Assembly: GCF_001536065.1 (NCBI RefSeq)
Contig: NZ_CZVW01000002.1
Span: 62,001 to 126,000 of the forward strand
DNA: 64,000 nt
Direction: 5' to 3'
From: Candidatus Chryseopegocella kryptomonas
Lineage (GTDB): Bacteria; Bacteroidota; Ignavibacteria; Kryptoniales; Kryptoniaceae
A program made the position numbers and the translations under genes. A model generated the notes under the pieces. The model was not told the DNA's origin and ran no database searches. It saw nothing but the letters and a program-made list of their open reading frames with translations. Of the stretch, positions 303 through 55,772 are shown one piece after another (position 1 is the stretch's first letter; each line of letters opens with the position of its first letter).

Positions 303-1364
303 ATGAATCAGCGGTTGCGTTCAATTGAATGGGTGGGGGATAAGGTTAAAATGATTGATCAGACGAAATTACCGCTTAAACTTGAATTTATTGAAACAGA
401 TGATTATCTGGTTATTGCTGATGCGATAAAGAAATTGAAAATTCGCGGTGCACCAGCTATCGGGATTGCAGCTGGGTTTGGGATTTATCTTGGTGTTAAA
501 AATTTTCAGGGTGATGATAAAGAAAAGTTTAAAAATCTTTTTGAAAATGTTTGCGAAGTTTTCGCTCAAACCAGACCAACCGCAGTTAATCTTTTCTGGG
601 CAATTGATAGGATGAAAAAAACATTTTACAGCAACATAAAGCTTGGAACAGATGAATTAAAAAAGAAATTACTTGAAGAGGCACTTGCAATTCAAAATGA
701 CGACATACAAATGTGTAAAACAATTGGACTTAATGGTTCAAAATTAATTCCGGACGAAGCAAATATCTTAACACATTGCAACACCGGATGGCTTGCCACG
801 GGTGATTATGGGACTGCTCTTGGGATAATTTACACTGCTTTTGAGCAAGGAAAAAAGGTTAGAGTTTATGTTGATGAGACGAGACCTCTTCTTCAAGGTG
901 CTCGTTTGACGACTTGGGAATTGATGCAAAGAGGAATTGAAACAATTTTAATAACCGACAATATGTCCGCTTATCTTATGAAACTTGGAAAAATTGATTG
1001 CGTGATTGTCGGTGCTGATAGAATTGCACTTAACGGAGACACTGCAAATAAAATTGGAACTTATAATCTTGCTATAATCTCAAAATTTCATAACATACCG
1101 TTTTATGTTGCTGCACCGACATCTTCAATTGATTTTAACATAAAGACAGGGGATGAGATACCGATTGAGGAAAGAGGTTCAGAGGAGATAGTTGAGATAA
1201 TGGGGAAGAGGATAGCGCCAGAAGGTGTTAAGACATTTTCACCTGCTTTTGATGTAACTCCAAATGAATTGATAACCGCAATTATAACCGAAGTCGGGGT
1301 GATTTATCCGCCATTTGAAGAAAATCTTCAAAAAATTAAAGAAAGCATAAAATCAAGAGATTAA
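303..1364 (+). CDS. mtnA: S-methyl-5-thioribose-1-phosphate isomerase
   Basis: 353-residue member of the eIF2B-alpha/MtnA family. MtnA converts methylthioribose-1-phosphate to methylthioribulose-1-phosphate in methionine salvage from methylthioadenosine. The substrate-binding RGAPAIG motif is at 48-54, the catalytic cysteine lies in THCNTG (Cys159), and the catalytic aspartate in VGADRI (Asp239), followed by NGDTANKIGTY, which is diagnostic. Length is normal for the family (about 350). The ATG at 303 lacks a Shine-Dalgarno sequence. recO starts immediately after its TAA, so the two are probably cotranscribed. Methylthioadenosine is the by-product of polyamine synthesis, and an arginine decarboxylase gene occurs 16 kb downstream. 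Ribulose-type isomerases acting on related sugars are a less likely alternative. Confidence 0.93.
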   Translation: MNQRLRSIEWVGDKVKMIDQTKLPLKLEFIETDDYLVIADAIKKLKIRGAPAIGIAAGFGIYLGVKNFQGDDKEKFKNLFENVCEVFAQTRPTAVNLFWAIDRMKKTFYSNIKLGTDELKKKLLEEALAIQNDDIQMCKTIGLNGSKLIPDEANILTHCNTGWLATGDYGTALGIIYTAFEQGKKVRVYVDETRPLLQGARLTTWELMQRGIETILITDNMSAYLMKLGKIDCVIVGADRIALNGDTANKIGTYNLAIISKFHNIPFYVAAPTSSIDFNIKTGDEIPIEERGSEEIVEIMGKRIAPEGVKTFSPAFDVTPNELITAIITEVGVIYPPFEENLQKIKESIKSRD

Positions 1365-6776: not shown

Positions 6777-6793
6777 ATTGGCAAGTCAAATAA

Positions 6794-6822
6794 AATATAA
6801 CCAACACAAATTGAAAAATCAA
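6794..6822 (-). promoter_or_regulatory. Promoter of tRNA-Ala
   Basis: Minus strand TTGATT (6817-6822), 17-base spacer, TATATT (6794-6799). The start site would fall about ten bases before the tRNA at 6776. Confidence 0.65.
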
Positions 6823-17113: not shown

Positions 17114-17659
17114 TTGTATGTCCCAACAAAAATGTTCCTGACGAAAGGAGTAGGGCGCCACAAGGAGAAGCTTACAAGCTTTGAGATGGCTTTAAGAGAT
17201 GCAGGGATCGCACAATTTAATCTTGTGCGTGTTTCAAGCATTTTTCCGCCCGGTTGCAAGATAATCCCCAAAAATAAGGGACTTGAATATCTTAAACCCG
17301 GTCAAATTGTGCATGTTGTGATAAGTCAGGAATCAAGCAATGAGCCGAATCGTTTAATCGCAGCTTCAATTGGTGTTGCAATCCCAGCTGATTCAGAACA
17401 ATTTGGATACTTATCCGAGCATCACGCTTTTGGTCAAACGGACGATAAAGCAGGTGAATATGCGGAAGACCTTGCAGCGACGATGCTCGCTACAACGCTT
17501 GGGCTTGAATTTGATCCAAACACAAGTTGGGATGAACGTGAGCAGGTATGGAAGATGAGCGGGAAAATTGTTAGGACATTTAATATAACTCAATCAGCGA
17601 TAGTTGATAAAACTGGTTTATGGACGACTGTTGTAGCAGCTGCTGTTTTGATTCCGTGA
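17114..17659 (+). CDS. pdaD: Pyruvoyl-dependent arginine decarboxylase
   Basis: 181 residues. Makes agmatine from arginine, the first step of polyamine synthesis by the agmatine route. These enzymes cut themselves between two serines to make a pyruvoyl group; here the site is Ser41-Ser42 in RVSSIFPPG. Other family marks are [28 protein letters not shown], and the end segment containing [18 protein letters not shown]. Common in archaea and in Bacteroidota and other thermophile bacteria. Length and start (TTG with a strong ribosome site) are normal. Polyamine synthesis releases methylthioadenosine, which fits the presence of mtnA. Other polyamine genes are not in the window. Confidence 0.93.
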
Positions 17660-17663
17660 AAAA

Positions 17664-17755
17664 GGTAAGAAGGAAAGGGCAGGCGGGGGGGAACCTGCCC
17701 TGCGGGGGAACCCAGGGCGGGGGATACCCTGGGTGAGGGAAACTCCTTCATTACC
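17664..17755 (+). other. GC-rich three-stem structured element (candidate RNA or dispersed palindrome)
   Basis: A 92-base block with far higher G+C than anything around it. An outer stem pairs GGTAAGAAGGA (17664-17674) with TCCTTC-A-TTACC (17744-17755; one bulged A at 17750). Inside are two hairpins: GGGCAGG (17677-17683) with CCTGCCC (17694-17700), and ACCCAGGG (17710-17717) with CCCTGGGT (17727-17734). Their loops and the joints carry related G-runs (CGGGGGGGAA, CGGGGGAA, CGGGGGATA, GAGGGAAA). It begins five bases after the pdaD stop and ends ten bases before a TATAAT box, 48 bases upstream of the xer gene. It has no T-run, so it is not a simple terminator. It could be a non-coding RNA, a leader element or a dispersed palindromic repeat. 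Confidence 0.75.
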
Positions 17756-17764
17756 TAACACAAA

Positions 17765-17770
17765 TATAAT
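17765..17770 (+). promoter_or_regulatory. Possible -10 box of the xer gene
   Basis: Perfect TATAAT, ten bases after the structured element and 32 bases before the xer start. No good -35; the -35 position falls inside the 3' arm of the outer stem of that element. Confidence 0.4.
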
Positions 17771-17802
17771 ATCTTTTTTGTTAAAAGTCAAGTGTTTTCA
17801 AA

Positions 17803-18702
17803 ATGCAAAACGAAATAAGAAAATTTCTTGAATACCTTGACATTGAAAAAAATTGCTCGCAAAGAACAATTGAAGCATATGAAGACGCACTCTACGAGTT
17901 TTACTCCTTCATCCTTAATCTTCGTGGAAAAGCTGATGTCCAAAAAATTGATAGATCGCTAATAAGAGATTATCTTGCTTATCTTCATTCAAAAGGTTTG
18001 AAGAAGACAAGTATTTCCGCCAAGTTATCCGCAGTTAAATCCTTTTTCAAGTTCCTTGTAAAATTTAAAATCATCCCTTCAAATCCAACCATAGGATTCT
18101 CGCTCAAAACCGAAAAGTCACTTCCTGTTTTTCTTGAAGAAGACAAAATTGAAAAGTTGATGAATCTTCCAGATTTAAAAACAGATGAAGGTGTGAGGGA
18201 TCGGGCTTTGCTTGAATTTCTTTACAGCACAGGCGTGAGGGTAAGCGAACTTTGTGGATTAAACATAGATGATGTTGATTTTTCAAATGAAACGGTCAAA
18301 GTTCTGGGTAAAGGTGGAAAGTTTAGGGTTGTTCCATTTGGAAGGAAAGCAAGAGAAGCATTGAGGGAATATCTTAAAATCAGGGACAATTTTACAACGA
18401 ATGAACAAAGTGAAGATGATAAAAAAGCCCTTTTTGTCTCAAAAAGCGGGAAAAGAATTACGAAATCCGAAGTTTATGAGATCGTGAGCAAGTATATTTC
18501 CGCAGTTGCTGACCTTGAAAGGAAAGGTCCACATGTGCTGAGACATTCATTTGCAACTCATCTTTTGAATCACGGCGCTGATATAATGGCTGTTAAGGAA
18601 CTCCTTGGGCATTCAAGTTTGTCAACAACTCAAAGATATACACATGTAACGGTTGAACATCTTAAAAAAGCGTATAAACTTGCTCATCCACGTTCTGAAT
18701 AA
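17803..18702 (+). CDS. xerC: Tyrosine recombinase XerC/XerD
   Basis: 299 residues. Tyrosine site-specific recombinase of the Xer type that resolves chromosome dimers at dif. An N-terminal SAM-like DNA-binding domain (about 1-100) is followed by the catalytic domain with Arg146 (TGVRVSEL), Lys170-173 region (GKGGK), His244-x2-Arg247 (HVLRHSFATH), His270 (LGHSSLSTTQ) and nucleophile Tyr279 (RYTHV). Length is typical. XerC or XerD cannot be told apart from sequence alone here. No integrase-associated genes or attachment repeats are near, so it is probably housekeeping. Its 3' end is one base from the convergent vWA gene. Confidence 0.92.
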   Translation: MQNEIRKFLEYLDIEKNCSQRTIEAYEDALYEFYSFILNLRGKADVQKIDRSLIRDYLAYLHSKGLKKTSISAKLSAVKSFFKFLVKFKIIPSNPTIGFSLKTEKSLPVFLEEDKIEKLMNLPDLKTDEGVRDRALLEFLYSTGVRVSELCGLNIDDVDFSNETVKVLGKGGKFRVVPFGRKAREALREYLKIRDNFTTNEQSEDDKKALFVSKSGKRITKSEVYEIVSKYISAVADLERKGPHVLRHSFATHLLNHGADIMAVKELLGHSSLSTTQRYTHVTVEHLKKAYKLAHPRSE

Positions 18703-54954: not shown

Positions 54955-55772
54955 TAATCTGGAAAATTTTACTTTTATTCGTCTCTGGACTTTTTGCTGG
55001 TTTTTTAGCAGGTTTTTTTGGAATCGGTGGGGGAATAATCCTTGTGTTAATTTTGATGTATTATTACGATGGAATTGGAATCTCACCAGATTTGATACCA
55101 AAAATTGCAGTTGCAACAAGTTTATTCACAATTGTTTTCACATCAATATCAAGCACATTGAAACAGTATGAGAACAAAAATGTTGAATGGAAACTTACAA
55201 TTACGATGGGAACTGCTTCGGTTATATCGGCTCTTTTCGGGAGCAAAATTGCTTCTTCTGTGTCTGGAAGTTTTATAAAGATATTTATAGTCGTTGTTAT
55301 AATTCTTGCGGGTTTGAGAATGCTTTTTCTTGGAAATTCGGAAATAGATGTTGATGACTTAACAGATTACAAAAGCAATGTGAATCCAGTTTCTGCATTT
55401 TTCTGGGGATTTATCGCTGGGATAATCTCAATTTTTGCAGGCGTTGGCGGTGGAATTTTGCTCGTTCCAGTGATGAATAACTTAATGAAAATTCCGATAA
55501 AAAGGGCAATTGGGACATCAAGCTCAATAATTGTCTTGACTTCGTTGTTTGGGACACTTGGCTATATAATCAACGGTCTTGGAAAACCTGAACTTAGCGA
55601 GCTTGGAACAATCGGATTTGTTGATTATACCGCTGGAATTCCAATTTTACTTGGTTCAGTGATAACAAGCAGATTTGGTGCACACGCATCTTATAGAACA
55701 AAATCCAAAATTTTGAAAAAACTTTTTGCTTTGCTCTTGATAACCGTTGCGATTGTGACATTTTTTAAATAA
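54951..55772 (+). CDS. TauE/SafE-family sulfite/anion exporter
   Basis: 273 residues, eight predicted membrane helices in two homologous halves, each with a glycine-rich motif (AGFFGIGGGI at about 20-29 and FAGVGGGILLVP at about 163-174). The family moves sulfonates, sulfite or related anions out of the cell. No sulfur-metabolism gene is adjacent. It overlaps ctpA by four bases. Confidence 0.9.
   Translation: MIIWKILLLFVSGLFAGFLAGFFGIGGGIILVLILMYYYDGIGISPDLIPKIAVATSLFTIVFTSISSTLKQYENKNVEWKLTITMGTASVISALFGSKIASSVSGSFIKIFIVVVIILAGLRMLFLGNSEIDVDDLTDYKSNVNPVSAFFWGFIAGIISIFAGVGGGILLVPVMNNLMKIPIKRAIGTSSSIIVLTSLFGTLGYIINGLGKPELSELGTIGFVDYTAGIPILLGSVITSRFGAHASYRTKSKILKKLFALLLITVAIVTFFK

Follow-up and report, generated by a model that had tools for sequence, protein, structure and literature searches.

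The GC-rich patch between pdaD and a xer-type recombinase gene of Candidatus Chryseopegocella kryptomonas very probably encodes, on its minus strand, a small regulatory RNA. The gene is conserved and syntenic among its relatives, carries its own promoter, has a distinct architecture and possesses a paralogue at a second locus. We consider it probable that the product is a lineage-specific small RNA (sRNA) acting in trans, delimited by promoter and terminator, whose C-rich loops would act on G-rich mRNA sites independently of Hfq. All positions given below refer to the window, i.e. the whole stretch of 64,000 nucleotides analysed here. The source genome comprises 2.07 Mb and is 78.5% complete; Candidatus Kryptonium thompsonii and a further Kryptonia MAG are among its relatives.

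Fold, strand and signals of the element

The element is a structured, GC-rich stretch of 92 nt (17664-17755) in an AT-rich setting. GC content reaches 63% in the 100-bp bin 17650-17749 compared with 23-50% in the neighbouring bins, and the fold is far better than that of dinucleotide shuffles, with a z of -6.15 on the minus strand versus -3.24 on the plus strand. Both results bear out the initial annotation, which had described a GC-rich structured element unlike its surroundings. The two GC hairpins with repeated G-rich loops that it had noted are likewise present; their G5-7 loops read as C5-7 on the minus strand. In addition, the closing U-G pair of each hairpin forms on the minus strand only and becomes a C-A mismatch on the plus strand. 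Both hairpins are predicted to persist at 70 C. Read on the minus strand, the element consists of a C-rich 5' end, hairpin 1, a C-rich linker, the terminator hairpin 2 and a U/C tail, and in the inferred RNA C accounts for 41-55% of the unpaired positions and G for 0-2%. The features of the locus are as follows.

17786-17791, minus strand: -35 hexamer TTGACT of the putative sRNA promoter, within the invariant 10-mer 17784-17793 plus TTGACTTT, invariant in seven genomes
17763-17768, minus strand: -10 hexamer TATATT, inside TATTATATTT, with a 17-bp spacer, invariant in seven genomes
17659-17756, minus strand: predicted small RNA of about 98 nt, placed from promoter and terminator (start about 7 nt past the -10 hexamer, 3' terminus on the final U of the tail)
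17662-17745, minus strand: conserved RNA core (type A) of 82-84 nt, in 7/7 family genomes
17735-17745, minus strand: C-rich 5' single-stranded segment GAGUUUCCCUC, invariant except for one missing U in genome G004
17710-17734, minus strand: hairpin 1, ACCCAGGGU-AUCCCCC-GCCCUGGGU, which folds with 9 pairs, the last being U-G
17702-17709, minus strand: C-rich linker UCCCCCGC, invariant in type A; the linker of the paralogue is C-rich too
17676-17701, minus strand: hairpin 2, terminator-like, AGGGCAGGU-UCCCCCCC-GCCUGCCCU, the sole terminator-like site in 17500-18000
17659-17675, minus strand: U/C-rich 3' tail UUCCUUCUUACCUUUUU, reaching the pdaD stop codon and invariant through 17662
17114-17659, plus strand: pdaD, pyruvoyl-dependent arginine decarboxylase (Pfam PF01862, E 1e-64), convergent with the sRNA
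17803-18702, plus strand: xer-type tyrosine recombinase (Pfam PF00589, PF02899), divergent from the sRNA

The strand is indicated by two invariant 10-mers, 17762-17771 (TATTATATTT) and 17784-17793 (ACTTGACTTT), which together read TTGACT-17-TATATT on the minus strand. Across the seven genomes both hexamers are invariant and the 17-bp spacing is constant while the sequence of the spacer varies, and both hexamers are aimed at the element. The perfect TATAAT that had been noticed ten bases beyond the element turns out to be the reverse side of TATTATATTT, the -10 of this minus-strand promoter, with TTGACT 17 bp away. The distance from the -10 to the element varies among the genomes from 13 to 27 nt, so that the plus strand has no promoter of fixed geometry. 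When up to three mismatches were allowed, the other minus-strand matches to the promoter in the 64 kb lay only just upstream of two tRNA genes, and this resemblance calibrates the sRNA promoter as a housekeeping one. The promoters in question, at 267-296 and 6793-6822 on the minus strand, belong to the tRNA-Met and tRNA-Ala genes; their consensus, TTGA(C/T)TTT-N-TATATTT/TAAATTT, may represent the housekeeping promoter of the Kryptonia lineage.

A terminator scan of 17500-18000 returned hairpin 2 on the minus strand, with the tail TTCCTTCTTA, as the sole terminator-like site. The tail of type A is just moderately U-rich, and its final U-run is shorter in G004. The earlier statement that the element lacks a T-run is correct for the plus strand only; on the minus strand hairpin 2 leads into TTCCTTCTTACCTTTTT. 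The non-coding RNA that had been proposed is well supported as a class, on the strand opposite to the one assumed. A role as leader or regulator of the recombinase gene, which had also been suggested, finds no support, since promoter and terminator sit on the strand opposite xer, the conserved promoter faces away from that gene and the RNA would have its 3' end at the pdaD stop codon. A coding function is disfavoured: the C-run, which has 6 or 7 letters depending on the genome, disrupts the minus-strand frame, whose ATG is not conserved either.

The outer stem of 11 pairs in the first description did not hold up. Its arm 17744-17755 is not conserved. When leader-tail pairing was compared with shuffled leaders, 0.2% of the shuffles were as good in the source species and 7-99% in six relatives, so that pairing in the relatives is no better, or marginally better, than in shuffles and the outer stem falls outside the conserved structure.

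Conservation in the family and a paralogue after gatB

The type A element occurs as a single copy directly after pdaD in all seven genomes of the Candidatus Kryptonia family examined. Over its 82-84 nt the seven species are alike except for the length of a C-run (6 or 7) and one missing T. Against every relative, no other 80 bp of the syntenic region are as well conserved: identity is 97.5-98.8%, compared with a median of 75-80% in 80-bp windows of the syntenic alignments and about 76% in the flanks of the element. The two longest stretches without any change across the aligned genomes span 17686-17739 (54 bp) and 17662-17684 (23 bp). Flanks and spacers diverge, which makes a recent transfer of the element unlikely; the near-identity of type A in this sample of seven genomes, which includes two incomplete assemblies and shows little variation within type A, is most naturally read as purifying selection.

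Beyond the family, BLAST returned no match to type A in 54 other genomes of the class, and the type A covariance model, run on 294 genomes of the class, found generic terminators only. The covariance model of the paralogue, run on 396 genomes of the phylum, did not find the element beyond the family either, and the weak matches of both models outside the genus represent generic terminators or C-rich chance. Phages, plasmids and viral contigs contained no match to the element. The dispersed palindromic element or mobile repeat that had been considered is contradicted by the copy search, which found a single copy in each genome at a constant site (7/7) and, at another fixed site, one diverged paralogue, and not the many copies of REP- or BIME-like repeats.

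Because of this paralogue, termed type B, the element is not isolated, contrary to the first description. Besides type A, a covariance model (R1) built from its minus strand detected one further locus, present in five genomes with E 8e-10 to 7e-6, and the reverse search with the type B model recovered type A in 7/7 genomes (E 1e-10 to 1e-11); these E-values are rough because of a short calibration. In all five genomes the sequence just upstream of type B reads as the final part of gatB, encoded on the same strand. Three of the five have a gatB gene that was recognized over its whole length; in the two remaining assemblies of the family, which are incomplete, gatB was not found. Type B starts with UUUCCCCACA, followed by the hairpin CCCUGGG-loop UUAUCCCC-CCCAGGG, a C-rich linker, the hairpin GCGGUGAG...CUCACCGC with a C-rich loop, and UUUUUAUUUUU. 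In the place of hairpin 2 of type A it carries an unambiguous, canonical terminator with a U-tract. In genome G001 type B starts about 12 nt past the gatB stop, suggesting that it may derive from the gatB 3' UTR; type A, in contrast, is preceded by a promoter of its own. A motif like CGACTAAAAAGAAAAAGTCG (L085 1609-1632) recurs among the loci behind gatB, 3' of the type B terminator and before an amidohydrolase gene.

The single-stranded parts are C-rich in both types, and the stems are altered. Stem covariation, which had been put forward as a check on the fold, gave a divided result: the stems are invariant within type A, and between types A and B five pairs are changed on both sides with 97.9% of cells still paired, the central pair of hairpin 1 being A-U in type A and U-A in type B. 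This supports covariation but does not prove it, as the alignment was fitted to the model and contains essentially one A-versus-B split.

Proposed action and alternative explanations

In the proposed mechanism, RNA polymerase would start at the TTGACT-17-TATATT promoter (17763-17791) on the minus strand and make an RNA of about 98 nt that stops at hairpin 2 and the U/C tail, at the end of the convergent pdaD. The parts left unpaired, namely the 5' segment UUUCCCUC, the loop AUCCCCC, the linker UCCCCCGC and the terminator loop UCCCCCC, are C-rich and nearly free of G. These parts would most probably pair in trans with G-rich stretches of several mRNAs, typically their Shine-Dalgarno regions, and translation would thereby be blocked in an Hfq-independent way. 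In related genomes the locus behind gatB would yield a second RNA built on this plan. The promoter, the architecture, the paralogy and the conserved, syntenic position are results of computation, while transcription, termination and target pairing are predicted steps. We infer a trans-acting translational repressor from the C-rich-loop plan of described sRNAs together with the search for Hfq, which was not detected in the seven family genomes while positive controls did match. As in C-rich-loop sRNAs, UCCC is exposed in loops and single strands and in the terminator hairpin, and the same holds for the paralogue.

Within the 64-kb window no convincing conserved target was found. The apparent G-rich start sites 331-351 and 55027-55044 were rejected because they are internal coding sequence of mtnA and of a TauE gene, and a match at the pdaD ribosome-binding site (GAGGGAAA) was rejected because it is not fully conserved. 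The mtnA gene (S-methyl-5-thioribose-1-phosphate isomerase, IF-2B family, 303-1364, plus strand) has its probable start near 303, ahead of the ATG at 351, since the region before that ATG reads as a usual N-terminus (IEWVGDKVKMIDQTKLP). In two species, the coding sequence of EF-G (GKKER codons) contains a perfect 18-nt complementarity to the type A 3' tail (L115, G001 C8:65255-65272, and G002 C16:34230-34247; E about 0.02), which may be due to chance.

The near-total invariance of type A exceeds the needs of C-rich pairing alone, and this counts against our preferred reading. An extended version of it, about which we are doubtful, is that the near-invariant pair of C-rich RNAs serves as chief mRNA-pairing regulator in a phylum of (hyper)thermophiles where Hfq went undetected, with heat-stable hairpins and anti-Shine-Dalgarno loops. 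If this were true, the invariance of type A in species whose flanks diverge by about 25% would reflect a large conserved target set or a dedicated protein partner. The invariance also suggests an RNA-protein complex, and a minus-strand RNA might accordingly act not by pairing with mRNAs but by titrating a protein, e.g. Rho or a cold-shock-domain protein, through its several C-rich, G-poor single-stranded stretches; the lack of a detectable Hfq in the seven genomes fits such a role. Rho prefers C-rich unstructured RNA, and its binding sequences are normally long and weakly structured. The C-tracts found here comprise 5-7 nt and are partly held in hairpin loops, unlike usual Rho sites, and we regard titration as unlikely.

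The remaining explanations give the RNA no role or place the function on the other strand. Both copies lie directly 3' of a gene, a perfect intrinsic terminator closes the gatB copy and terminators are the usual chance matches of both covariance models, all of which would fit a mere transcription terminator for pdaD and, in the second copy, for gatB. However, the terminator near pdaD is oriented against pdaD, whose own strand lacks a U-tract, and hairpin 1, the invariant loops and a separate promoter would all be superfluous, making this explanation quite improbable. We give even less credence to a plus-strand RNA, formed by the pdaD 3' UTR, that would sequester CsrA by GGA in its loops and linkers in the manner of CsrB/RsmY. 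CsrA is indeed encoded in 7/7 family genomes (G000 C7:74656-74808 and six others), and on the plus strand GGA is found in each loop, within the linker and at both hairpin flanks. Yet no conserved promoter serves this strand, the invariant promoter faces the opposite way, the closing U-G pairs turn into C-A mismatches and the U-tract terminator of the paralogue fixes the other strand; with its minus-strand promoter and practically G-free unpaired positions (0-2%), the inferred RNA does not present the GGA loops on the transcribed strand that characterize CsrB/RsmY. Finally, a function at the DNA level, as a plus-strand G-quadruplex, which the initial annotation had allowed from the number and spacing of the G-tracts, or as a site for Xer or replication, could be read from the adjacent xer gene and from the four G-tracts of at least three that are kept on the G-rich strand in both copies. 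It would account neither for the promoter and terminator nor for the two-sided stem changes between the copies, and it would leave the U-G pairs specific to one strand and the presence of the paralogue beside gatB at another locus unexplained; we consider it very unlikely.

Relation to known C-rich-loop RNAs

In Rfam 15 no family matched the element at its gathering threshold, and nothing meaningful appeared at E <= 10. The 6C family (RF01066) gave no match at E <= 10 in the seven genomes, a cut-off that the control genomes missed too. The preferred reading, a C-rich-loop sRNA, nevertheless has several described counterparts which the element may resemble in mode of action. The B11/6C sRNA of mycobacteria has C-rich loops, one of which is the loop of a Rho-independent terminator, and pairs through them with G-tracts adjoining ribosome-binding sites (PMC12395582). 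Where 6C RNAs have two stem-loops with about six or more C each, the loops of the element carry 5 (hairpin 1) and 6-7 C; it also differs in belonging to another phylum, in forming a paralogous pair and in having its own sequence. LhrC of Listeria is a multicopy sRNA that acts on lapB without Hfq and, similarly, has C-rich (UCCC) motifs in a stem-loop, a single-stranded stretch and the terminator loop (PMC4132741), but the element has longer C-tracts, stems from a high-temperature lineage and showed no Rfam relation at all. In sX13 of Xanthomonas, which is Hfq-independent and acts on G-rich motifs near starts, stable stems bear apical CCCC/CCCCC loops (PMC3771888); sX13 has three stem-loops, the element two, and lineage and sequence are unrelated. 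A C-rich 5' loop with six tandem C, the most conserved part of the molecule, is used for target pairing by GsrN of Caulobacter (PMC5869019), which differs from the element in being a general-stress sRNA of Alphaproteobacteria with a single C-rich loop. Convergence with these sRNAs is likelier than common descent.

A limited literature search turned up no small RNA reported from Candidatus Kryptonia. The two loci and the covariance models can be checked directly in existing hot-spring metatranscriptomes. If the element is transcribed, regulation by C-rich-loop RNAs, known from Firmicutes, Actinobacteria and Proteobacteria, would extend to a hot-spring lineage of the FCB group without detectable Hfq.
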